A model generated the notes under the pieces. It worked only from the letters and a program-made list of their open reading frames with translations, searched no databases and was not told where the DNA came from. A stretch of 64,000 bases of DNA from Agapetus fuscipes (taxonomy: Eukaryota > Arthropoda > Insecta > Trichoptera > Glossosomatidae), in contig OX637337.1 in the NCBI GenBank assembly GCA_951799405.1, forward strand, positions 3,968,001 through 4,032,000. The letters run 5' to 3'. The position numbers and the translations under genes are program-made. Of the stretch, positions 4,195 to 63,110 are shown piece after piece (within the stretch, counting starts at the first letter, position 1; every line of letters starts with the position of its first letter).

Positions 4195-4310
4195 GCACTG
4201 AGTATTTTTTTTGTTTCTAGGGAGACTACCTAGATTTCAGATACTCTAAGAGTCTATAACACTTGTTGTAGTGCCGTAGAGGTGATGGTGATGTGGCACT
4301 TGATGTCCTG
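4195..4310 (-). mobile_element. SINE-A type 2 tail fragment
   Basis: Read on the minus strand this carries the module CACCTCTACGGCACTACAACA, then TAGACTCTTAGAGTATCTGA and AGGTAGTCTCCC. That order matches the 3' end of SINE-A copies at 10.8, 27.6-27.9 and 52.9 kb. It is degenerate and lacks the head. Confidence 0.6.
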
Positions 4311-6855: not shown

Positions 6856-7171
6856 GTCAACGACGATACCATGTTGAAAGCACCGGTTCTCATCAGATCA
6901 CCGAAGTTAAGCAACATTGGGCGCGAATGCTACTTGGATGGGTGACCGCTCAGGTACACCGCGTGTCGTTGGCATCTTGGACCGGTCCGTAGTCCTGTGG
7001 CAACACTTCGGACTCGTAAATGGAAGGTTGTGGATTCGAATCCTGGCGGAGCACAAAAATATACCGTTTATATTTCCAAATGTGCTCGTCGCTGGGTTGA
7101 AAAATTCATAAACCTTTACCAAAGACCGGTCACTGAAAGGTCCATCCAACCTTACAACAACAATAGTCGAT
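6856..7171 (+). mobile_element. Chimeric SINE: full-length 5S rRNA fused to SINE-A
   Basis: Positions 6856-6975 are a 120 bp 5S rRNA-like sequence. It opens GTCAACGACGATACCATG and keeps CATCAGATCACCGAAGTTAAGC and GGATGGGTGACCGC, close to the internal promoter of arthropod 5S genes. There is no T-run terminator. After CTTGG it passes directly into the SINE-A tRNA-like head at 6981 (GGTCCGTAGTC, GGATTCGAATCC) and body, ending near ACAACAACAA. The element therefore carries two kinds of RNA polymerase III promoter in tandem. 5S-derived SINEs (the SINE3 class) are known, and 5S joined to a tRNA head is unusual. Confidence 0.8.
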
Positions 7172-10548: not shown

Positions 10549-10580
10549 TTCATTTTTAAAGTTATTTATAAGTGGACCTT

Positions 10581-10902
10581 GGACTAGTCTGTAGTCCGTA
10601 GTGGCAACACTTCGGACTCGTAAATGGAAGGTTGTGGATTCGGATCCCGGCGGAGCACAAAAATATACCATTTATATTTCGAATGTGCTCTTCGCTGGGT
10701 TGAAAAATTCATAAACCTTTACCAATGACCGGTCACCAAAGGTCCATCCAGCCTTACAGCAACTGGGTCTTGCTTGAGTATTGGCGCTTTGTAGCGACGA
10801 CCAAGCTCGTACACCTCTGCGGCACTACAACAAGTGTCATAGACCCCTAGAGTCTTTTGAATCTAGGGAGTCTCCCGCACAGGATTTCTTAAAAAAAAAA
10901 AA
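10581..10902 (+). mobile_element. SINE-A, full length, type 2 tail
   Basis: The tRNA-like head includes GTCCGTAGTGGCAACACTTC and B-box GGATTCGGATCCC. The body runs through AAACCTTTACCAATGACCGG, GGTCCATCCAGCCTTACAGC and TTGGCGCTTTGTAGCGACG to CAAGCTCG. There it switches to the type 2 module CACCTCTGCGGCACTACAAC, the inverted pair CCCTAGAGTC/TCTAGGGAG, CCGCACAGGATTTCTT and a poly(A) run at 10891-10902. The same 3' module is the 3' end of the LINE at 32.9-33.6 kb. Confidence 0.85.
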
Positions 10903-11190: not shown

Positions 11191-11268
11191 CAACCCGCGA
11201 ACCATAGATTGTCCAAGACAGATTCGGGAATGGGCAATGAGAAGATCAAACGGCATATAATAACAGCT

Positions 11269-11560
11269 GACCGGTACGTAGTCTAGTGGTAACGCTTCGG
11301 ACTCGTAAATTGAAGGTCTTGACTTCGAATCCCGGCGACGCACAAAAAAATTATAATTTTCATTTTCAAAAACGCTTTTCGCAGGCTTGAGATATTCATA
11401 TACCTCAACCGAAGACCGAGCAAAAAATGGTCCATCCAGCCTTCCAGCGACTAGGTCTTGTTTGAGAATTGGCGCTTTATATGGCGCTGACCAAGCTCGC
11501 AGAGGGCTTTTGAGGTGTAATTCACGCAAAATAAGCGCTCACACGAAATAAATCATACTA
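11269..11560 (+). mobile_element. SINE-A, full length, type 1 tail
   Basis: Head with GTAGTCTAGTGGTAACGCTT and B-box CTTCGAATCCC, body as in other copies, then CAAGCTCG followed by the type 1 module GAGGGCTTTTGAGGTGTAA, GCGCTCACACGAAATAAATC and a short A+T tail. This module matches LINE 3' ends at 15.5, 21.8 and 44.7 kb. Confidence 0.85.
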
Positions 11561-11849
11561 GTAGGTATTATTTATTTATGCCTTTTACAAAACATTTAAT
11601 TCGTAGGTAATCTATGGAACATAATTTTCTAATGAAAAATCCAGCTAAGGTGGAGGATGAGCCATAGATTTGTTGTATGTGAATAGCACCGTAATAGTTT
11701 TTTTTCGTATGGACAAATTGTGAAGTACTAACAATAATAAACCAAAATATTTAACGATACATCTAATACAATATATGTTAAAGGAACGCAATAAATATAT
11801 CAATCAAATAACATTCAGATTAGATTCAGATTTCAATATATGTGTCCGG

Positions 11850-14379: not shown

Positions 14380-14482
14380 AGCTCCAACACTTACACCTCT
14401 GTGACACTCCAACAAGTGGCATAGACCTCCAAATTCCCTAAAATGTAGGGAGTATTCCACTCAGTATTCCTTGAAAAAAACT
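14380..14482 (+). mobile_element. SINE-A type 2 tail fragment
   Basis: CACCTCTGTGACACTCCAAC, GGCATAGACCTCCAAATTCC, AATGTAGGGAG and an A-run. The rest of the SINE is missing. Confidence 0.65.
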
Positions 14483-14812: not shown

Positions 14813-15176
14813 AATATTGATAAATTGCAACTCTTCGTTTTTTTGCCTATTTTTATTTTTTGCGTTCACTCAATTTGCGCTGGCAAATTATTATTTTCGA
14901 TTCCGCCTTGTCTGCCGCAATAATTACGAGCATTTAAAAGCGGAGAGAGATGGGATTCGAACCGTGTGCCTCTCGGTTCACATGAGGTAACGCTTCCTGG
15001 ACAGTAAAAACACAAAATGCGACTCGACTGACCCAGAATTGGCGGTGAAATGATGTAGACTCAGTCACTTTTAGAGCAAGTATAGAGAATCGTGCAGCAA
15101 AAAAAAAACAGTCACTAAATCATGACGACGGGGAAAAACATTTACTATTATAGTTGATTGATTAATAATAAATATT
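14813..15176. other. Spacer with tRNA-like scrap
   Basis: GATGGGATTCGAACCGTGTG at about 14950 looks like a minus-strand B-box/T-arm of a SINE head. About 45 bp at 15108-15160 recur in direct orientation at 15787-15835, on the other side of the SINE-A/LINE nest. Confidence 0.4.
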
Positions 15177-15768
15177 AGGATGATTTATTTGGTGAGCGCT
15201 GTTTTTGTGTATCACACCTCAAGAGCCTTCTGCGAGCTTGGTCGTCCCTGTAGCCGTCGCTGATTTAATCAAATCAGTCACCCTCGGCAAAAAAAGCCTA
15301 ACACTGCGCTCGGCTGAGACTGGAGCCAAATGATTGAAGAACCTATAAGAAGAGTTAACACAGTGTTTGGAGAGCGTGCATTTGCAGTTGCTAGCCCTCT
15401 CGCCTGGAACCACCTGCCACATCATGTGAGAGAGCTAGAGGACCATGGAAAGTTCCGGAATGCACTGAAGACAAGCAAATTTCTGGCATCGTTTGCACCA
15501 GCGCCCTTGAAGTGACTACATCACGAAATGGCGCTATAAAGAAATCATCATCATCATGTAGAAAGCGCCAATTCTCAAGCAAGACCCAGTTGTTGTAAGG
15601 TTGTATGAACCTTTCAGTGACCGGTCTTTGGTAAAGGTTTATGAATTATTCAACCCAGCGAAGAGCACATTTGGAAATATAAATGGTATATTTTTTGTGC
15701 ACCGCCGGGATTCGAATCCCCAACCTTCCATTTACGAGTCCGAAGTGCTGCCACTGGTCGCGTCAAGA
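15177..15768 (-). mobile_element. SINE-A type 1, interrupted by a LINE insertion
   Basis: Minus-strand SINE-A: the tail (GTGAGCGCTGTTTTTGTG in plus) lies at 15177-15235 and the body and head at 15562-15765, ending in the tRNA-like GACCAGTGG...GGGATTCGAATCCC region. The break falls within CTGTAG|AAAGCGCC and holds a 303 bp LINE fragment flanked by TGTAG. Confidence 0.85.
15254..15556 (+). pseudogene. 5'-truncated LINE 3' end inserted in SINE-A
   Basis: Flanked by TGTAG at 15249-15253 and 15557-15561. The frame at 15330-15515 reads as the conserved C-terminus of a CR1/L2-type polyprotein (NTVFGERAFAVASPLAWNHL and HHVRELEDHGKFRNALKTSK). The 3' end reads CGCCCTTGAAGTGACTACAT, CACGAAATGGCGCT, AAGAAATCATCATCATC. 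This matches in order the type 1 tail of the SINE it entered, so host SINE and invader appear to share one retrotransposition signal. Confidence 0.85.
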
Positions 15769-18550: not shown

Positions 18551-18555
18551 TTTAG

Positions 18556-18915
18556 CTGAAAAAATCATAAACCTTTACCAATGACCGGACACCAAAGGTC
18601 CATCCAGCCTTACAGCAACTGGGTCTTGCTTGATGATTGGCGCTTTGTAGCAACGACGATCAAGCTCGTAAAAAGGTCGATGGCTCAATTGGTAGAATGC
18701 TTGCATTCCATGCCGAGAGCAAAGGTTCGTTTTCAAGGTTTACTCGAAATGAGAACCAGCCCCCCGGGAGCTGGGAAACCCCCACTTCAACTGAAAGCGG
18801 TTGGTGTGAGGCCGGCCCCCTTACCTGTAAAAATAAATAGGTCGCGAATTGCCACATGCGACTCCTTCAGGGATAACGCAGGCAAGAAGTTACACTATAT
18901 GTGAAGCTTAGTTGC
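18556..18915 (+). mobile_element. Dimeric SINE: SINE-A body plus SINE-B
   Basis: A 5'-truncated SINE-A body (AAATCATAAACCTTTACCAA to CAAGCTCG at 18661) continues through a short A-run into a SINE-B head at 18675 (GTCGATGGCTCAATTGGTAG). The SINE-B body follows to CACTATATGTGAAGCTTAGT. Joined A-to-B units of the same design occur at 39.9 and 62.7 kb. It interrupts family G. Confidence 0.85.
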
Positions 18916-19030
18916 ATTATAGTGTTTTTTTATCATAAAAAATGGGATTAAAGGTGCGTTTTGATTGAGAAACCTATGTTAGCAGAATATGCAATTTATT
19001 CAGTTTTACCTTTGAGGTGCGGATATCTAT

Positions 19031-27345: not shown

Positions 27346-27590
27346 AGTGAGAAGTGGCAACTTGTTGGCCGATAGCTTAGCACCGGTATAACATACACTC
27401 ATCAAAATATATTAGACAAGACGCGTGAGACAAATACACTTTTATAGATCCACTTTTTATTATCACATACACCTCCCGTACCGTATATTTACTAGCCTTA
27501 CCTTACAACAGTACGTCAAGTATACAAATTCACGTTCAAACTAGATCATAACGTTAACAACAAAATTGTACTACAATTTCAACGCTCGTT
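27346..27590. other. No recognised feature
   Basis: A+T-rich spacer. Confidence 0.4.
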
Positions 27591-28146
27591 TTTTTTTTTT
27601 TTAATCCTGTGCGGGAGACTCCCTAGATTCTAGAGACTCTAGGGGTCTATTTTTTTTAAGTGATTTGTGAAGAGGAATGCAATTCACCAACCTATCCTGC
27701 CTGGCCAGAAACAGGTATTAATATCATCAATTAAAAATTCATTATTGATTTATATTAATGAATTATTTATTAATAATTAACCAATAACATCTGTTGAACC
27801 AGGGTCAAAGTTAAAGTCAAGTGACCCAAGCGGGGATCGAACAAACGTTATTCTATTCCAAATACGTTAGAAAGAATGACACTTGACATGACACTTGTTG
27901 TAGTGCCGCAGAGGTGTACGAGCTTGGTCGTCGCTACAAAGCGCCAATACTCAAGCAAGACCCAGTGCTGTAAGGCTGGATGGACCTTTGGTGACCGGTC
28001 ATTGGTAAAGGTTTATGAATTTTTCAACTCAGCGAGGAGCAAATTTTAAAATATAAATGGTATTTTTTTGTGCTCCGCCGGGATTCGAACCCACAACCTT
28101 CCCGTTCAGAGTCCGCAGTGTTACCACTGAGCTACAGACCGGTCAA
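27591..28146 (-). mobile_element. SINE-A type 2, interrupted by SINE-C
   Basis: On the minus strand: head with GGTCTGTAGCTCAGTGGTAA and B-box GGGTTCGAATCCC, a complete body, CAAGCTCG, then CACCTCTGCGGCACTACAAC. The type 2 tail continues on the far side of a SINE-C (27651-27887) with TAGACCCCTAGAGTCTCTAG, AATCTAGGGAGTCTCCCGC, CACAGGATT and poly(A). Confidence 0.85.
27651..27887 (-). mobile_element. SINE-C, 5'-truncated, inside SINE-A
   Basis: On the minus strand it begins at GTCAAGTGTCATTCTTTCTA within the tRNA-like head and ends AATTGCATTCCTCTTCACAA, ATCACTTAAAAAAA. It lacks the first bases of the head, as expected from incomplete reverse transcription. Confidence 0.8.
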
Positions 28147-28360
28147 AGTTGTTTAGTTTCAGTATATACATATATATTTTTGGTTAACGCTATCTATTGT
28201 TAAGTTAAAACGAAATGTTTTATACATACTTAGGTAAGAATCGAAACAACAGTCGTAATAATATGATAGTATTATATTATTTGTTCCCACAGTGTTACCT
28301 AAGCGTATTAATAAAAATAATTATAATTTTTTAAAGCCTCCAACTTGACAACTCGTCTCC
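28147..28360. other. No recognised feature
   Basis: A+T-rich spacer before the MITE. Confidence 0.4.
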
Positions 28361-31340: not shown

Positions 31341-31425
31341 TGGCCTGATTGGGCTCTTGAGGTGTGATACACACAAAAACAGCGCTCACCATTATAAATC
31401 ATCCTAATGTTATTGTTTAAACGGC
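31341..31425 (+). mobile_element. Type 1 tail alone (LINE or SINE 3' end)
   Basis: GGCCTGATTGGGCTCTTGAG, GTGTGATACACACAAAAACA, GCGCTCACCATTATAAATCA. The upstream word GGCCTGATT is not SINE-A sequence and recurs at 53764, so this is probably a 5'-truncated partner LINE rather than a SINE. Confidence 0.6.
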
Positions 31426-32878: not shown

Positions 32879-33580
32879 TTTTTTTTTTTTTTTTTAAGGA
32901 ATCCTGTGCGGGAGGCTCCCCAATTCTTGTGAGTCTTGGGGGTCTATGTCACCCTGGAAGGGTGCCGCAGAGGTGTTGCTTGAGTTCTTGGTTCTGTCGT
33001 GAGGCGCTGCAAGGAAGTGGTGATTGGTGTTGGTTTTGAATAAAACCGGATTAAATTGGGAAGGGAACACAGATACTGGTAGACCATTCCATAAACGGGC
33101 AGTTTGGCAAAGGAATGAGTCATGAAAACGCCAAGTTCTCATAGTTTTCAGATCGACTGCAAAGGGATGAATGAGAGTCGTACTACGAGTTTCCCTTTCT
33201 GAAAAGCGAGGGGGAGGGATTAATGAATGGAGCTCATTAGAACAAGCTCCGTGGTAATATCGATAAAAAAAGACTGAGCATTCCAACTTTTCTTCTGTGC
33301 TGGAGCGGCTGCAGATCGGATGTCAGAGAAGGATCATTGATCAACCTCACTGCCCTCCTTTGCACAGAATCAAGTTGGTCACTCAACTTCTTGGACATAC
33401 CACACCAGAGATGGCTGCCATACTCGATAATGGGGCGGATTTGGGATTTATACAGAGTCAATAACTGGGCTGAAGTAAAAACCTACGGGCTCTGTATAAT
33501 ATGCCGAGTCGCCGGAAAGCGGAAGTTGTGCGAGACTCAATAGCATCATGGTATTTTAACTCTGATGACAGAGAAACACC
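32879..33580 (-). pseudogene. LINE 3' end with poly(A), reverse transcriptase C-terminal region
   Basis: On the minus strand three overlapping frames read in order: VGVSLSSELKYHDAIESRTT, then TLYKSQIRPIIEYGSHLWCG with SVQRRAVRLINDPSLTSDLQ, then YRYYHGACSNELHSLIPPPR and FHDSFLCQTARLWNGLPVSV. This series is the part downstream of the catalytic domain in jockey/CR1-group non-LTR elements. Frameshifts lie near 33460 and in the A-run near 33265. The 3' end carries CACCTCTGCGGCACCCTTCC, CATAGACCCCCAAGACTC, ATTGGGGAGCCTCCCGCAC, AGGATTCCTT and a poly(A) run. This is the SINE-A type 2 tail. Confidence 0.85.
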
Positions 33581-39370: not shown

Positions 39371-39750
39371 AACCGGTCCGTAGTCTTATGATTTACACTT
39401 CTGACTCGTAAATGGAAGATTGTGTTTAGAGGGCTCTTGAGGTGTGATACACAAAAAAACAGCGCTCACCAAATAAATCATCCTAATTTTATTATTATTA
39501 TTGTGGGTTCGAATTCCAGCGGAGCACAAAAAAATATAAGTACCATTTATATTTTCAAATATGCCCTTTGCTTGGTGACAAAAAATCATATACCTTTCCC
39601 AAAGCCCGGTCACTAAAGGTCCATCCAGCATTAGAGCAACTGGGTCTTGCTTAAGAATTGGTAATTTCTACAGCGACGACCAAGCTCGCAGAGGGCTCTT
39701 GAGGTGTGATACACACAAAAACAACGCTCACCAAATAAATCATTATTTTT
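39371..39750 (+). mobile_element. SINE-A type 1 with an insertion in its B-box region
   Basis: Head (GGTCCGTAGTCTTATGATTT), a 75 bp insertion at 39425-39499, then GGGTTCGAATTCC, the full body, CAAGCTCG and the type 1 tail (GAGGGCTCTTGAGGTGTGAT). Confidence 0.85.
39425..39499 (+). mobile_element. 75 bp type 1 tail inserted on its own
   Basis: Consists of little more than GAGGGCTCTTGAGGTGTGAT, the hairpin region, AACAGCGCTCACCAAATAAA and (ATT)n. ATTGTG flanks it at 39419-39424 and 39500-39505. It is an extremely 5'-truncated SINE or LINE copy. Confidence 0.85.
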
Positions 39751-39966
39751 TTTTAATTGTCGAAATAACGAATCGTGAAAATAAATAGTTTGTTAACGAA
39801 CAGGTTTTCTAAGATATTCTGTGGAGCACATCTATATGTGACCGAAAGTCGTTTGAACGAAATTTCGTGTGAACGAAAAAACCTTTCCCAATGACCGGTC
39901 ACCAAAGGTCCATCCAGCTTTACTTTATCCAGCAACTGGGTCTTGCTTGACAATTGGCGCTTTGTA
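39672..39966 (+). repeat. Duplicated block, copy 1
   Basis: About 295 bp nearly identical to 41671-41964, differing visibly only in the length of a T-run. It spans the SINE-A 3' body, a type 1 tail, a 110 bp unique linker and the start of the next SINE-A body with the odd doubled CTTTACTTTATCCAGC. Confidence 0.9.
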
Positions 39967-40276
39967 GCGACGATGACCAAGCTCGTAAAAATGTCGATAG
40001 CTCAATTGGTAGAATGCTTGCATTCCATGCCGAGAGCAAGGGTTCGATCTCAAGGCTTACTCAGCCTTCACAAGAAATGAGAACCAGCCCCCTCGGGAGC
40101 TGGGAAACCCCCACTTCAAATGAAGTGGTTGGTGTAAAGCCGGCCACTTTACCTCTAAAAATAAATAGGTCCCGAATCCCGAAGTGACACTAAATACTGT
40201 AACTTCTAACTATAAAAAATAACTATGTAACTACTAACTTTATAGTGTAACTACACATAATGTGTAGCTTAGTTGC
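39889..40276 (+). mobile_element. Dimeric SINE: SINE-A body plus SINE-B
   Basis: A 5'-truncated SINE-A body to CAAGCTCG (about 39978-39985), then GTAAAAAT and a SINE-B head at 39993 (GTCGATAGCTCAATTGGTAG; GGGTTCGATCTC). The body follows to CACATAATGTGTAGCTTAG. A 35 bp local duplication (AACTTCTAACTATAAAAAAT-like) disturbs the end. Confidence 0.85.
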
Positions 40277-40358
40277 GTTCTGTGCTCCGCCGGGAATTGA
40301 ACTTACAACCTTCCGATTAAGAGTTGGAAGCGTAGTCAATAGACTAAGGACCGATCTT
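40277..40358 (-). mobile_element. SINE-A head fragment
   Basis: GTGCTCCGCCGGGAATTGAA, CTTACAACCTTCCGATTAAG and AGACTAAGGACCG: complement of a tRNA-like head. Confidence 0.7.
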
Positions 40359-40606: not shown

Positions 40607-41165
40607 TATAATCTATAAATCGCTATTGCCATTTACGGCTCATATTTAATGCATAACCACAAGCAGGCACATTTAAGTTCGTGTTTACACATGTTGTACA
40701 ATAACAGTAAAAAATATAATATCAGGATGATTTATTCGGTGAGCGCTGTTTTTGTGTGAATCACACCCTCCTCCTTCGAGCCCTCTGCGAGCTTGGTCGT
40801 CGCTGTAGAAAGCTCCAATTCTCATGCAAGACCCAGTTGGTGTAAAGCCGGATCGACCTATGGTGACCGACCTTTGACAAAGACAGATTAATTTTGCAAC
40901 CCAACGAAGAGCAAATATTAAAAATGAAATCTTTTTTTTGAGCTCCGCCGGAATTCGAACCCACTTCCTTCCGATCCGGATTCAAAGTTTTAACCACTAG
41001 ACTGCGGGCCGGTCTGCCTTTTTATGTGTCTTTATCTACAAAATAAACCAAATCTCACATGAACATGAACTTAGCAACTCTTATCGCCCTGTTTTGAAAT
41101 CGGGGTGGCAATTGCAAAAGTGAACCAAGTTTTTTTCTGTATGGTTGTCAGCCTCATACCAAACA
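40607..41165 (-). mobile_element. TREP interrupted by SINE-A
   Basis: TREP 3' half at 40607-40710 (AATCTATAAATCGC, CCACAAGCAGGCACATTTAA) and 5' half at 41015-41165 (ACAAAATAAACCAAATCTCA, GTTGTCAGCCTCATACC). Confidence 0.75.
40720..41014 (-). mobile_element. SINE-A type 1 inside TREP
   Basis: The plus strand reads the tail first (GGATGATTTATTCGGTGAGC), then CGAGCTTGGTCGTCGCTG in complement, the body, and the head with TAACCACTAGACTGCGGGCC. Confidence 0.8.
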
Positions 41166-41460
41166 ACTAGTTAAGGTTAATAATTATAGGCATTATTTCT
41201 TTTAAAATTACTCACCTTTGATATCTCTTTAAATATTAATTTATATTGACAGACTGCATTTGCGTCAACCCTTGTGAGTGATAAAAAATATATGCATGTG
41301 TCAGTTTGTGTAGTGGTGTGAGAAAAACTAACACACTGTTTTTTTTTTTGTACATTGATGGGATAGCTCCAAAACTTAATATATACATTTTGTATTATTT
41401 TCAAAACAATTCAAAGATTTCAATTAATGATATTTCAAAATAAAATTGACAGTTAATTGT
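41166..41460. other. No recognised feature
   Basis: A+T-rich spacer. Confidence 0.4.
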
Positions 41461-41752
41461 GACCGGTTTGTAGTTCAGTAGTAACACTTCGAACTCTGAA
41501 TGGAAGGTTGTGGGTACGATTCCCGGTGGAGCAAAAAAAAAAACATTTATATTTTCAAATTTTCTCGTCGCTGGGTTGAAAATTCATAAACCTTGACCAA
41601 AGACCGGTCATCAAAAGGTCTATCCAGCCTTACAGCCACTGGGTCTTGCTTGAGAATTGGCGCTTTCTAGAGCGACGACCAAGCTCGCAGAGGGCTCTTG
41701 AGGTGTGATACACACAAAAACAACGCTCACCAAATAAATCATTTTTTTTTTT
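41461..41752 (+). mobile_element. SINE-A, full length, type 1 tail
   Basis: Head GACCGGTTTGTAGTTCAGTA, B-box GGGTACGATTCCC, complete body, CAAGCTCG then GAGGGCTCTTGAGGTGTGAT, AACGCTCACCAAATAAATC and a T-run. Confidence 0.85.
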
Positions 41753-41964
41753 AATTGTCGAAATAACGAATCGTGAAAATAAATAGTTTGTTAACGAACA
41801 GGTTTTCTAAGATATTCTGTGGAGCACATCTATATGTGACCGAAAGTCGTTTGAACGAAATTTCGTGTGAACGAAAAAACCTTTCCCAATGACCGGTCAC
41901 CAAAGGTCCATCCAGCTTTACTTTATCCAGCAACTGGGTCTTGCTTGACAATTGGCGCTTTGTA
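41671..41964 (+). repeat. Duplicated block, copy 2
   Basis: Near-identical partner of 39672-39966, about 2 kb downstream. Beyond 41964 the copies part: copy 1 proceeds to CAAGCTCG and SINE-B, whereas this one jumps to ACACATAAAAACAGCGCTCA, a shortened type 1 tail. Confidence 0.9.
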
Positions 41965-41989
41965 ACACATAAAAACAGCGCTCACCAAT

Positions 41990-42240
41990 TAAATCAGCCT
42001 ATTTTTTATTTTTTTAAATAACCTCGATTTGGAGCTCCCTACGTTTGACAGTATGCCAATGTATTATAATGACCGGATAGCAGACAAAGTGAATAATATC
42101 AATGTATTGGTAGGGTCTGGCCGTCTTAGTGTGGAATTGTAGAAAAAAATATTATTATTTTAGCTAGCACATCTGCCGGCACACAGTCAAAGTTAAACAT
42201 TATAAAAAAGTGCTAACCTTATTTAGTTACGACATTTATC
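41990..42240. other. No recognised feature
   Basis: A+T-rich spacer. Confidence 0.4.
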
Positions 42241-44699: not shown

Positions 44700-45483
44700 A
44701 TATTATATATGAGGATAATTTATTTAATTAAAAGTTAATACATGACAAAAGAGCGCCGTTTTTGTGTATGTCACACCTCAAGGGCCCTCCTAATCATGAA
44801 TGAGATATTTTAAAAAGGTGCTGTTTGAGTGCTTTCTTAAAAATGCCAACAGATTCCGAAACCCTCACTCTGGGTGGCAGTCTGTTCCACTCCACTGGTC
44901 CCGCAAACCGGAAAGCGCGATCCCCAAAATTAGTGCATATTTGACGGCGAGGCTGCACCAACCTGACAGCTCGACACTCCGCTGACCTAAGTGTCCGCCC
45001 CCTCACACTCACCTCAACGGGGGAAAACATGTCTGCCAGATATGATGGAGCCAAACCATTTAGGGCTTTAAATACCATCAAACACACACGGTAGACCACC
45101 CTCTCAGGAAAACGAAGCCAATGTAGTTCTTTCAACAGCGTAGTGATGTGAGAGAATTTGGACATCCCGAAGATCAGTCTTGCGGCCGCATTCAAAAGAG
45201 ACTGAAATCTGTTCAGTTGCTTCTTTGACTGGCCGATATAAAGTGTGGAACAATAATCAATTCGGGACATCACAAAAGCACTCACCAATGTTTTAACCAC
45301 ACCCGGCATATCTGTTGTATCTTCTGGTCTACAGTGTGCGTATATTTGGCAATCATCTGCATACATATGCATTTGAACTCTCCAGCTCTGTGCAAAGCTT
45401 TTCAGTTCCCTAATATACATTATAAAGAACAGTGGTCCCAAGACGGAGCCCTGTGGAACTCCTGTATCCATATCAGCCATATC
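44700..45483 (-). pseudogene. LINE 3' half with YADD motif and intact 228-codon frame
   Basis: The minus-strand frame (44794-45480) begins in the reverse transcriptase palm: TGVPQGSVLGPLFFIMYI, then MYADDCQIYAH with the catalytic YADD. At EDTTDMPGVVKTLVSAFV it jumps directly to the thumb/C-terminal part (MSRIDYCSTLYIG; KFSHITTLLKELHWLRFPER; ICTNFGDRAFRFAGPVEWNR). Related elements carry more residues between, so an in-frame internal deletion is likely. No stop or frameshift interrupts it, suggesting youth. The 3' end reads AGGGCCCTTGAGGTGTGACA, TACACAAAAACGGCGCTC and AAATAAATTATCCTCAT, the same design as the SINE-A type 1 tail. Confidence 0.85.
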
Positions 45484-52669: not shown

Positions 52670-53132
52670 TATCGATTCCTTGACTTATAGGTTGGTATGA
52701 GGCTGACCACCCATACTGTAAAAAATGGTTCACTTTGCCAATATTTTCAAATTTGCTCTTCCCTGGGTTGAAAAATTCATAAACCTTTACCAATGACCGG
52801 TCACCAAAGGTCCATCCAGCCTTACAGCAACTGGGTCTTGCTTGGGTATTGATGCTTTGTAGCGACGACCAAGCTCGTATACCTCTGCGGCACTACAACA
52901 AGTGTCATAGACCCCTAGAGTCTCTAAAATCTAGGGAGTCTCCCGCGCAGGATTTCTTAAAAAAAATGTCACCCCTGTTTCAGGGAAGGTCGGCAAGAGT
53001 TGCAGGGCTTATATTCATTTGAGATTGGGGTTTTATATTGTAGTTCCACATGCGGCATGTGTTTGTGGGAATGCGTTTAATACGAATCTTAAATGATATA
53101 TATATCTTTGTAGCTTGGATTCAGATTTAGAT
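52670..53132 (+). mobile_element. TREP interrupted by SINE-A type 2
   Basis: TREP at 52676-52739 and 52969-53132 joins as TTTGCCAAT|GTCACCCCTG. The end is degenerate (TTTGTAGCTTGGATTCAGAT). Confidence 0.85.
52741..52968 (+). mobile_element. SINE-A type 2, 5'-truncated, inside TREP
   Basis: Starts in the body at TTTTCAAATTTGCTC, passes CAAGCTCG into CACCTCTGCGGCACTACAAC, TAGACCCCTAGAGTCTC, AATCTAGGGAGTCTCCCGC and an A-run. Target duplication is at most 2-3 bases (AAT). Confidence 0.85.
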
Positions 53133-53763: not shown

Positions 53764-53838
53764 GTGGCCTGATTGGGCTCTTGAGTTGTGATTCACTCAA
53801 GAACAGCGCTCACCAAATAAAATATTCTTATGATTATA
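53764..53838 (+). mobile_element. Type 1 tail alone
   Basis: GGCCTGATTGGGCTCTTGAG, TTGTGATTCACTCAAGAACA, GCGCTCACCAAATAAAAT. Shares the GGCCTGATT lead with 31344. Confidence 0.65.
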
Positions 53839-54185
53839 TATTTTTTTTATCTAGGTACAAATGATGCATGGATATTTTCATCTCTGTACAACTGTTCGCG
53901 TGTCGGTTGACCATAAAGCTTGCTCACATAAAATGATTTAATTACTCCATTAATATTTATTTAATTGAGAATAGCACTGGATCGTATTCTCTACGATTGG
54001 TAGCGTATTGCCAGCAATAATTGCCAGTGCACCTACCCGAGGTATTGTCTGAACGATAATTTATAAACAATTCGATTGTTATCTCAGTTCGCAGCAGATT
54101 AAAATGTTCATTTCGATAATTGTTGTGTTTAACAATTATTGTATACTTGTCAATTGATGTTGATTTAATTGTTATGATTTTACTG
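53839..54185. other. No recognised feature
   Basis: A+T-rich spacer; a 90-codon minus frame has no motif. Confidence 0.4.
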
Positions 54186-57253: not shown

Positions 57254-57710
57254 CGGAAGGTCTAGAGTTCAATTCGCGGCGGAGCAAAAAAACGAAAATC
57301 CTCTTTGCTGGGTTATAAAATTCATATGCCTTTAATTCCTTGACTTATAGGTTGGTATGCGGCTGACCACCCATGCTGTAGAAAATGGTTCACTTTGCCA
57401 ATGTCAACCCTGTTTCAGGGAAGGACGGCAAGAGTTGCAGGGTGCAAGCGCGAACTTGTACGTATCTGGTTGTGAGAATGCATGTAATATGAATCTCCAA
57501 TGTAACATATTTTGCAACTTAGATTAGATTAGATTAGATTAGCCTGTACCAAAGACCGGTCACTAATAAAGTCTTTGTAGTTTTACAGTAACTGGGTCTC
57601 GCTTGAGACTTGGCGCCTTCTACAGCTACGACCAACCTCGCAAAGGTGTTTTTGAGGTGTGATTCACACGAAAATAGATCACACCAAATAAATAATCCCA
57701 TAATTATGAT
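57212..57710 (+). mobile_element. SINE-A type 1 interrupted by TREP
   Basis: Head with GTTATCTAGTAGTTAACGCC and B-box GAGTTCAATTCGC, body to CCTTTA (57335). After TREP it resumes CCTGTACCAAAGACCGG, GGCGCCTTCTACAGC, then GGTGTTTTTGAGGTGTGATT and ACCAAATAAATAATCC. Confidence 0.8.
57336..57543 (+). mobile_element. TREP inside SINE-A, internally deleted
   Basis: ATTCCTTGACTTATAGG to GCAACTTAGATTAGATTAG with about 45 bp missing after TTGCAGGGTG. Flanks CCTTTA/CCTGTA are consistent with a diverged target duplication. Confidence 0.85.
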
Positions 57711-58632: not shown

Positions 58633-58664
58633 TATATCAAATAAGTTTAATGATAATTGTAATA

Positions 58665-59144
58665 TTAGGATGATTTATTTGGTGAGCGCTGTTTTGTGTG
58701 AATCATACCTCAAAAGTGCTGTGCGAGCTTAATCGTCGTCTGTAGAAAGCCCCAATCCTCAATCAATATCCAGGTGCTGTAAGGCTGGATGGATCTTTGG
58801 TTACCGGTCTGTGTTTTTTTTTTAAATATAAATTAATTTCTCATCCCCACGAAGAGCACATTTGAAAATATAAATGGAGTATTTTTTGTGCTTCGCCGGG
58901 ATTCGAACCCACTTTAATCTATAATGTAAATTGCCAAAATATATTACAGTTAAGATTCATTTTAAATGCAAACCCAAAAGCAGGCGCGTGTAAGTTCACG
59001 CCTACACATGCCGCATGTGGACTTACAACCAAAAACCCAATCTCAAATAAACATAAACCCTGCAACTCTTGCCGATCTTCCCTGAAACAGAGGTGATATT
59101 GGCAACCCACGACCTTCCATTTTCGAGCTAAGTACAGACCGGTT
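58665..59144 (-). mobile_element. SINE-A type 1 interrupted by TREP
   Basis: Tail GATGATTTATTTGGTGAGCG (58669), body, then the B-box complement GGGATTCGAACCCAC. After TREP the head continues GACCTTCCATTTTCGAGC and GTACAGACCGG. Confidence 0.85.
58913..59103 (-). mobile_element. TREP, 5'-truncated, with 7 bp target duplication
   Basis: AACCCAC flanks at 58906-58912 and 59104-59110. In its own sense it starts at GCCAATATCACCTCTG, missing the first 70 or so bases, and ends ATAGATTAAA. 5' truncation plus target duplication is the signature of target-primed reverse transcription. Confidence 0.9.
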
Positions 59145-61068: not shown

Positions 61069-61258
61069 GGAGCGTGCATAGGGTACAGGCAAAAACATTT
61101 CAAAATAAATATTTTCTCCTATTCGTTTACAATAATTCAACTTAAATTGTCTGAAGTGAAAGCGATGGCTCCCATCGAACTTAAATTTTGAATTTTAAAT
61201 ATGAATATCAAGCTTAAATGGTTTTTTCCTATACATTGCCTACCTGTCCTGGAGGATT
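61069..61258. other. No recognised feature
   Basis: A+T-rich spacer. Confidence 0.4.
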
Positions 61259-61259
61259 A

Positions 61260-61557
61260 TAGTATTTGGATGATGTATTTGGTGAGCGCTATTTTTTGTG
61301 TGAATCACACCTCAAGAACCCTCTGCGAACTCAGTATTTGCTATAGAAAGCATCGATTCTCAAGCAAGACCCAATTGCTGTAAGGTTGGATGGTGCTTTA
61401 GTATCCGGTCATTGGTAAAGGTATATGAATAGTTCAACCAGCGAAGAGCATATTTTGAAAATATAAATGCTGTTTTTTTTTTGCTCCGCCGGGATTCGAG
61501 CCCACAACCTTCCATTTACGCGTCAAAAGTGTTAATCACTAGACTATGGACCGGTCA
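61260..61557 (-). mobile_element. SINE-A, full length, type 1 tail
   Basis: TGATGTATTTGGTGAGCGC at the tail, CACACCTCAAGAACCCTCTG, body, GGGATTCGAGCCCACAACC and TAATCACTAGACTATGGACC at the head. Confidence 0.85.
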
Positions 61558-62466: not shown

Positions 62467-63110
62467 TGTTATGGCCGAGGGGGCCAAGTGGGCTGATCTT
62501 TCTAACGTATTTGGAATAGAATAACGTTGGTTCGATCCCCGCCTGGGTCATTTCACCATAGCTTTGACCGCGGTTCAACAGATGTTATTGGGTAGTTATT
62601 TATTAATAATTCATTAAAATAAACAATAATGAATGATTAATTGGTGATATTATAGGAGACCGGTCCGTAGTTCAGTGATAACACTTCGGACTCTGAATGG
62701 AAGGTTGTGGGTTCGAATCCCGGCGGAGCACAAAAAATAAACCATTTAGATTATCAACTTTGCTCTTCGCTGGGTTGAAAAATTCATAAACCTTTACCAA
62801 TGACCGGTCACCAAAGGTACATCCAGCCTAACAGCAACTGGGTCTTGCTTGAGAATTGGCGCTTTGTAGCGACGACGACCAACCTCGTAAAAAAGGTCGA
62901 TAGCTCAATTGGTAGAATGCTTGCATTCCATGCCAAGAGCAAGTGTTCGATCTCAAGGTTTGCTCCGAATCGCCACACATGCAACCCCCTTCGGGAATAT
63001 CTCAGGTAAGAAGTTACACTATATGTGTAGCTTAGTTGTAAATGTGAATACCTGTTTCTAGCAAGGCAGAATAGGTTGGTGAATTGCATTCCTCTTCACT
63101 TTTTTTTTGA
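62467..63110 (+). mobile_element. SINE-C interrupted by a dimeric SINE
   Basis: Head GTTATGGCCGAGGGGGCCAA, B-box GGTTCGATCCCC and body to GGTGATATTA (62652). The 3' end AATACCTGTTTCTAGCAAGG and TTCCTCTTCAC resumes at 63047. Confidence 0.85.
62657..63044 (+). mobile_element. Complete dimeric SINE (SINE-A head and body plus SINE-B)
   Basis: SINE-A head GACCGGTCCGTAGTTCAGTG with B-box GGGTTCGAATCCC, full body, AACCTCG (the CAAGCTCG landmark), GTAAAAAA, then SINE-B head GTCGATAGCTCAATTGGTAG, a shortened body, and ACACTATATGTGTAGCTTAG. Both edges fall cleanly inside SINE-C, so the dimer moved as one unit. Confidence 0.9.

Follow-up and report, generated by a model that had tools for sequence, protein, structure and literature searches.

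One SINE body, three alternative 3' tails and a common joint in Agapetus fuscipes (Trichoptera)

Background

How does one SINE body come to end in three different tails at the same position? The question is raised by a stretch of 64,000 nucleotides of the Agapetus fuscipes genome (C5:3,968,001-4,032,000, here called the window), in which copies of one element, SINE-A, share a body that runs to the landmark GACGACCAAGCTCG and then continues as tail T1, T2 or T3. The initial annotation had explained this by repeated template switching at a fixed RNA position, giving one SINE access to more than one LINE.

A conserved central domain with various heads and LINE tails is found in the CORE-, V-, Deu-, Ceph- and MetaSINE superfamilies, in AmnSINE1 and in the mollusc "jigsaw" SINEs. 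SINE-A, which can be likened to the CORE-, V-, Deu-, Ceph- and MetaSINEs by description only, has a similar architecture, namely a central part with varying heads and tails.

We hereby analyzed the window together with the genome that contains it (618 Mb searched, 148 contigs). The reading that we consider probable is that of three subfamilies of one modular tRNA/5S-headed SINE, each going back to one or a few chimeric founders and amplified presumably by the tail's LINE or by the SINE-B helper; a stop and jump of the LINE enzyme would be the mechanism that made the founders.

Results

SINE-A copies in the window

The copies and their parts are the following.

10578..10692, plus strand: tRNA-related head of a T2 copy, with A-box-like (10592-10604) and B-box-like (10636-10647) stretches read by eye; probably 5' truncated just within a 5S-tRNA head
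10693..10809, plus strand: shared SINE-A body, type B2, the landmark at 10796-10809 being its end
10810..10902, plus strand: tail T2, the 3' stem-loop of LINE-2 with poly(A)
11268..11572, plus strand: T1 copy, joint 11499/11500
39501..39743, plus strand: T1 copy, joint 39688/39689
41460..41742, plus strand: T1 copy, joint 41687/41688, with a CTGAATGG-type tRNA head
40716..40972, minus strand: T1 copy, tail start rearranged
15163..15260, minus strand: T1 tail with just the last body bases (upper limit by eye)
61256..61557, minus strand: T1 copy, diverged
57543..57710, plus strand: T1 copy, absent from the initial annotation
58653..58912, minus strand: T1 copy, likewise absent from it
52741..52966, plus strand: T2 copy, truncated at its 5' end
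27888..28159, minus strand: T2 copy, with the remainder of its tail at 27589-27650; a subsequent insertion probably broke the tail in two
18554..18918, plus strand: T3 copy (body, TAAAAA, SINE-B)
39879..40279, plus strand: T3 copy (body, TAAAAA, SINE-B)
62658..63038, plus strand: T3 copy, SINE-B internally deleted
6856..7159, plus strand: 5S rRNA head (Rfam RF00001, 6856-6974), tRNA-related part and body start, without a tail
32886..33286, minus strand: 3' end of a T2-type LINE, the end of an open reading frame (short piece, 33286-32897, no Pfam match) followed by a T2-like tail (32976-32886)
44751..45480, minus strand: 3' part of a T1-type LINE, a reverse transcriptase-like frame (45480-44797; RVT_1 29.5 bits, just below the Pfam cut-off of 29.6) followed by the tail (44789-44751)
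39428..39499, plus strand: tail-only T1 insert in another SINE copy, starting with AGAGGG, with a possible ATTGTG duplication
14392..14480, plus strand: tail-only T2-like stretch, 78% identity

In a pattern search of the window the landmark was recovered together with its T1, T2 and T3 continuations, in or close to the places reported for them: T1 at 11.5, 39.7 and 41.7 kb and, on the minus strand, at 15.2 and 40.8 kb; T2 at 10.8 and 52.9 kb and at 27.9 kb (minus); T3 at 18.66, 39.98 and 62.89 kb. The T1 copy reported at 61.3 kb (minus) is also present, with a diverged landmark. T1-like copies not reported before lie at 57.6 kb and 58.7 kb (minus); others, at 13.1 and 23.5 kb, have diverged further.

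Several segments are compound. The multi-SINE segment at 39.4-42.0 kb of the window is repeated at C1:95-99 kb (L002) and near C1:1.184-1.187 Mb (L051/L052). At 41877-42001 (the 41.96-kb copy) the 5' flank is that of the 39.98-kb T3 copy and at ..CTTTGTA the sequence passes from the body to the mid-part of a T1 tail, giving an off-joint chimera in a duplicated segment. Two T1 tails of the window, at 31341-31417 and 53765-53845, have GGCCTGATT in common before GGGCTC and perhaps represent another T1-bearing family. Elsewhere, L005 (C1:2,475,001-2,485,000) is made of 1,709-bp tandem units, each with T1 SINE pieces in both orientations, and in C1:10.2-15.4 Mb nearly identical T1 copies, which read AGACCAACCTCGCAGAGGG, stand in a dense run that forms a local expansion or an array.

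One joint and three tails across the genome

The landmark has 27,085 exact matches in the 618 Mb, dispersed and at high copy number, and its pattern read backwards, used as a control, has none. Followed by the T1 start CAGAGGGC (22-mer in all) it is found 9,959 times, and followed by the T2 start TACACCTCTGCGGC (28-mer) 4,912 times; as exact-match counts, these are lower bounds. A sample of 80 loci, chosen on the landmark as sole criterion, was taken around 81 of 100 listed landmark places, all within C1:0.22-2.62 Mb. These loci hold 82 exact-landmark copies, which continue as T1 in 42 cases, T2 in 30 and T3 in 10. The script labelled 77 of these tails, and the five others were sorted by eye (L058, L080 and L087 as damaged T1, L071 as old T2, L043 as old T3-like). 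No fourth tail occurs among the 82 exact-landmark copies of this C1 sample.

The T1 tail is 65-70 nt long and ends in ATT repeats; T2 is about 80 nt long and is followed by poly(A); T3 consists of TAAAAA and then a complete second SINE, SINE-B. T3 is a fusion with another SINE and no direct LINE tail. It forms a dimeric SINE whose second unit has free-standing copies of its own: 28 of 39 SINE-B 5' ends, counted by eye in 264 kb, have no SINE-A in the preceding 60 nt. The 3' end of SINE-B has a stable predicted fold (z -4.9).

The claim that the switch falls at the same position every time holds in that one sharp joint is seen in 82 of the 82 copies read; it needs correction in that the bases directly after CTCG vary and the 41.96-kb copy lies off the joint. 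A single sharp breakpoint with three downstream sequences is what the 82 copies display, and high copy number was counted for T1 and T2.

The tails and their LINEs

Judged from their sequence, T1 and T2 are the 3' ends of two different LINEs, and have the stringent-type feature of a tail common to the 3' ends of SINE and LINE. In 264 kb, T1 follows LINE sequence at two places (LINE-1) and T2 at eight (LINE-2), counts that include the reference pieces themselves (one of the two and three of the eight, respectively). The 659-aa frame of L020, followed by a T2 tail, matches RVT_1 in Pfam with an E value of 1.2e-30, and its nearest sequence relatives in the PDB are LINE-1 ORF2 proteins, an RNA-directed DNA polymerase and then R2 proteins. 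The frames of the two LINEs are distantly alike (48% over 44 aa, 25% over 170 aa), and the named relatives of one LINE frame include Loxostege, Chilo, Tuta, Euphydryas and further Lepidoptera; crab and beetle names occur among them too. Of the proposed access of one SINE to more than one LINE, it is supported that the tails T1 and T2 belong to two LINEs; T3 carries SINE-B.

In one copy (L020 5690-7666, minus strand) the LINE reading frame continues into the T2 tail, which is there partly coding. Tails of the T2-type LINEs are of two types or more and show compensating changes in the stem (window 4220-4287 and 32886-32976, both minus strand; L006; L017).

In both T1 and T2 the joint lies 2-4 nt ahead of a predicted terminal stem-loop. 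The T2 stem-loop starts 4 nt into the tail (z -4.8), and among 14 distinct SINE and LINE tails 92.6% of the cells of the stem are paired and six pairs have both sides changed. The observed pairing or covariation score was matched by none of 500 shuffles, the number of double-change pairs by 10 and the number of pair types by 495. When the T2 structure is slid along the tails, the paired fraction drops to 20-49%, a comparison biased in favour of the unslid structure because this was derived from one of the 14 tails. The T1 fold starts 2 nt into the tail (z -2.9; 88.1% paired); its covariation is weak, a slide of +2 having seven double-change pairs vs three, and an alignment-based fold finds little for T1. 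When the adjoining LINE sequence is included in the fold, the two T1 tails tried pair upstream past the joint, and of two T2 LINE tails one adopts another fold. A joint at the stem base fits the tail modules in SINEs, the LINE RNAs less clearly so.

Tails inserted without a body

Tails also occur on their own, mainly T1. A 304-kb survey covered the window, L001-L020 and L157-L160, L001-L005 having been picked to include landmarks. Seven of its ten tail-only T1 sequences start within +1..+6 of the tail and four of four tail-only T2 sequences at +1..+3. These counts leave out, for T1, L017 5793 and L160 7236, both of which look by eye like diverged bodies, as well as L002 3550 (a duplicate of window 39428), and, for T2, window 27650, which is the other part of the 27.9-kb copy. 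A genome pattern for T1 that excluded the canonical joint and showed the 19 bases before an inner motif gave 1,611 matches, 100 of them listed; 33 of these were removed (23 with a body, 9 with a LINE by 5-mer, 1 repeat), which leaves 67 that are tail-only by letters. Among these listed matches, 41 of the 67 start exactly at AGAGGG (+1), as do two more by eye (script "+15"); the other 24 start at +2..+7 (22) or at +13/+14 (2). Twenty seemingly body-free loci, hand-picked from listed matches of a pattern requiring AGAGGG, comprise 13 tail-only inserts, 5 with a body and 2 with a LINE, so that some "+1" rows may be diverged bodies. Short candidate target duplications flank the inserts of L140, L143 and L148. 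Among the T2 genome matches listed, 2 of 36 look tail-only. A literature search did not find tail-only inserts at a joint; we do not claim that they are unpublished.

Since these inserts are strong evidence in T1 and sparse in T2, a stop at the stem base is a good explanation for T1 and is suggested for T2. The joint base may thus be where the LINE enzyme stops or jumps, which is well supported for T1 only. The tail-only T1 inserts could also have been copied from a tail RNA that was cleaved off or transcribed by itself, or belong to other SINEs with the same joint, with no reverse transcriptase stops involved. The tails at 31351 and 53775 of the window, both preceded by GGCCTGATT, would agree with this, as would the C or T that stands before AGAGGG in most inserts listed, where the LINE copies L013, L151 and L153 have G. 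However, at 13 of the 20 loci the flanks match no other compared sequence across the tail boundary or sit in unrelated repeats, and we regard this origin as rather doubtful.

The bases at the joint

After CTCG, 67 T1 copies read C (55) or T (2), 10 being unparsed, and no A stub was seen at the T1 joint in these copies; the stub is limited to T2 and T3. The 39 T2 copies read TAC (27), TAT (3), TGC (2), TAAAC (2) or one of four other forms once each, with one unparsed, and the canonical T2 joint is CTCG-TAC-ACC (27/39). As the bases after CTCG vary, the true joint of T2 and T3 lies about 2-6 nt past it. A genome search for T2 joints with the canonical one excluded gave 2,690 matches, and 36 sequences were read among 100 places listed: 10 have CTCG-TAAA-CAACACC, 11 CTCG-TAA-ACACC or close to it and 2 CTCG-TAAAA-CACC; the remaining ones are LINE-like (6), have a joint deletion (3), are canonical with an indel (2) or are otherwise different (2). 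CAACACC is also read in five of eight LINE tails. From these two observations, the older T2 joint was probably a TAAA stub joined to the CAACACC of the LINE. The present joint looks like a shortened form of it, and the graded series of T2 joints (TAAACAAC, TAAAC, TAC) looks like one origin followed by small deletions. In three of the 36 sequences (C1:2642861, 2877411, 5455261) the stretch between two CTC repeats spanning the joint is absent, a small recurrent deletion.

The 20 T3 joints read TAAAAA (9), TAAAAAGTCC (3) or similar forms (6), with two unparsed. Older T3 copies retain the 5' start of SINE-B (GTCC, or an intact GTCCGG), and T3 comprises an older form and a shortened young form. Since older T2 joints read TAAA and T3 joints TAAAAA, the RNA of the body probably had a short A stub at its end and acted as acceptor.

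An origin in DNA, in which a SINE copy recombined or underwent gene conversion with a copy of a LINE or of SINE-B, might also explain the founder chimeras, which would then have been amplified without any RNA jump. The 41.96-kb off-joint chimera does sit in a duplicated segment, and some mixed copies may be conversion products; but the A-rich stub of T2 and T3 and the intact GTCCGG of older T3 copies favour an end-to-end RNA junction, and the tail-only T1 inserts end at one same base. We therefore hold a recombinational origin of the founders to be unlikely.

Linkage between body and tail

Body and tail are not combined freely. The usual body variant is GAATTGGCGCTTTCTACAGCGACGACC with T1, GTATTGGCGCTTTGTAGCGACGACC with T2 and GAATTGGCGCTTTGTAGCGACGACGACC with young T3. 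By script label the 82 copies comprise 39 B1-T1, 27 B2-T2, 4 B3-T3, 2 B1-T3 and 1 B2-T3, with body or tail unassigned in nine rows; none of the 66 typed copies crosses B1 or B2 bodies with the other of the T1 and T2 tails (Fisher p = 4e-19). Genome-wide, the exact B2 body was found with a T1 tail 19 times, where T1 and T2 joints number in the thousands, and such copies are probably well under 1% of the T1 copies. An alignment of 110 copies (7 of 117 were left out as identical) extends the pattern: at column 188, 52 of 53 T1 copies have A and 36 of 38 T2 copies have T; at column 200, 46 of 53 T1 copies have C and all 38 T2 copies have G. Further 5', in columns 103-161, the linkage is partial, T1 itself being mixed there. 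In the same alignment the median divergence from the own consensus is 3.8% for T2, 8.5% for T1 and 8.9% for T3, and T2 looks the youngest of the three.

This linkage is a founder-subfamily pattern and no free exchange; any one tail was probably acquired on a single occasion or on a few, and amplified afterwards. Later exchange or recombination does occur, because off-diagonal copies exist by script label (L078, L057, L030, L043), of which L078 is a clear mixed copy with a B1 body end, a young T3 tail and a 5S head. L078 and the 19 exact B2xT1 copies are also what could be said for ongoing repeated switching at a fixed RNA position, in which any body would join any tail at any time. That explanation, which the initial annotation had preferred, has against it the absence of T1/T2 crossings among the 66 typed copies, the rarity of B2xT1 copies and the graded series of T2 joints; switching that is both free and repeated was rejected on the linkage and the genome-wide count, and we consider the ongoing process very improbable.

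Sequence beyond the tails

If tails had been dropped into a longer body, the copies would be expected to share the sequence after the tail. Among the 80 loci, the 3' flanks of T1 and T2 copies resemble each other in 3 of 2,415 pairs: one is due to a duplicated segment, another to a repeat inside a single locus, and the third pair stands at 84%. In longer loci the figure is 18 of 666, mostly duplicated segments, with 14 pairs in register: 11 of these belong to known repeated segments (window 39-42 kb, L002, L005), and three, at 73-81%, lie outside them (L003/L019, L013/L019, and the 27.9-kb T2 copy with the T3 copy of L002). There is no general continuation. Nested insertion, with independent tail elements landing at a preferred site in an existing body, is scarcely credible: tail-only T1 elements do insert independently, but the joint is the same in all 82 copies read and what follows the tail is not common to the copies compared, on which grounds this explanation was rejected.

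Heads and target sites

SINE-A has a pol III-type head, with putative A and B boxes read by eye. A full 5S rRNA (RF00001) lies immediately 5' of the tRNA-like part at 6856-6974 of the window and in L004, L010, L011 and L019 (five of eight sources, Rfam). ARAGORN found no tRNA in the window and Rfam no tRNA family at gathering score in the eight sources, the likeness to tRNA being seen by eye. Among landmark copies, 5S heads precede T1 in 7, T2 in 9 and T3 in 1. The T2 copies have a 5S with a GTAAATGG-type tRNA (9) or a CTGAATGG-type without 5S (11); of the other 18, four have GTAAATGG and no 5S, five have a different head, and in nine no head was found. As heads differ within T2 and across tails, modules vary on both sides of the body. 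Plausible target-site duplications are present in few of the copies examined (L015 +6208, about 10 bp), and none is evident at the 10.58-kb copy.

A prokaryote collection gave no matches. The bare 16-mer is matched by 36 viral contigs, with the body in front in none of them, and four viral rows flagged "TAIL" by a loose pattern were judged from their letters to be chance. A full-text search with four 13-14-mers of these sequences had a sole match, in an unrelated paper on hexosamine kinases.

Discussion

The three subfamilies can be accounted for most simply by template jumping, end to end, from the stem base (or from the 5' end of SINE-B) to the CTCG-TAAA end of the body RNA. The LINE enzyme would prime at the target and copy its own 3' stem-loop, would often halt at the 5' base of that stem-loop, and would occasionally jump to a body RNA close by, whose 3' end reads ...AAGCTCG-TAAA(AA). 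The acceptor side of the joint would be set by where the body RNA ends, and the donor side by the stop site of the enzyme or, for T3, by the 5' end of SINE-B. The joint, the tails with their LINE links, the linkage between body and tail, the A stub of T2 and T3 and the tail-only inserts (mainly T1) are observations; we infer the jump, its direction and the dependence on each LINE.

A wider reading, which we put forward tentatively and as less than probable, is that the base of a LINE 3' stem-loop is a built-in stop-and-jump point. Letting go there would leave tail-only inserts, and an end-to-end jump onto a short pol III RNA would make new SINEs; a body RNA with an A stub would be a standing acceptor, so that one lineage could take new tails from one SINE and no fewer than two LINEs and outlive any single helper.

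Tail-swapped SINEs are already published, Lepidoptera included (PMC8010984, PMC3272025, in the parts available). The relation of the SINE-A body to PxSE4/PxSE5, ObSE2 and HaSE was compared by published description only. In the available part of their description, the lepidopteran PxSE4 and PxSE5 are 5S-headed and have 250 bp of 5' sequence in common with different 3' ends, one of them LINE-derived, and the tRNA-headed ObSE2 has its centre in common with PxSE4 (PMC8010984). They are like SINE-A in the 5S head and in one 5' part with different 3' ends, but have two tails where SINE-A has three; a common joint position, a stub, tail-only inserts and body-tail linkage are features of SINE-A not found for PxSE4/PxSE5 in that part of the source (PMC8010984).

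As far as the accessible text goes, HaSE1, HaSE2 and HaSE3 of Helicoverpa armigera have a tRNA head and central domain in common, with 3' parts from an RTE LINE or mariner; their authors proposed template switching, and a 5S-headed version of the same body exists (PMC3272025). One body, differing 3' parts and a 5S-headed version are thus found in HaSE as in SINE-A, but in HaSE3 the 5S replaces the tRNA head, whereas in SINE-A it precedes the tRNA-related head, and the 3' parts differ in kind from the SINE-A tails (PMC3272025, same extent).

The chimeric LINE/SINE retrogenes of Magnaporthe grisea arose by template switching at recurrent nucleotides near predicted hairpins; 33 bipartite chimeras and one tripartite are described, with the motif GCC*A/U, in the section of the paper available (PMC2104539). 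Recurrent, hairpin-associated switch sites are common to that system and SINE-A; according to the same section, however, the chimeras are not amplified families, and their motif is unlike the SINE-A joints (PMC2104539). In stringent-type recognition, as outlined in the available part of one account, a structured 3' end is common to SINE and LINE (PMC3747384); compared with the SINE/LINE pairs outlined there, SINE-A has two such tails plus a SINE on one body (PMC3747384). What is added here is the coincidence in one genome of one acceptor end, structured donors and tail-only products.

The way in which a SINE acquires the tail of a LINE usually has to be deduced from one finished product. The present genome offers three outcomes on one body, intermediate joints, free donors (two LINEs and SINE-B) and tail-only inserts that end at the same base, and a model in which the enzyme stops at its own stem-loop and jumps becomes testable by counting in a single genome and by a simple in vitro assay. 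One body with different borrowed endings at a near-identical spot hints at how such parasites switch helpers.
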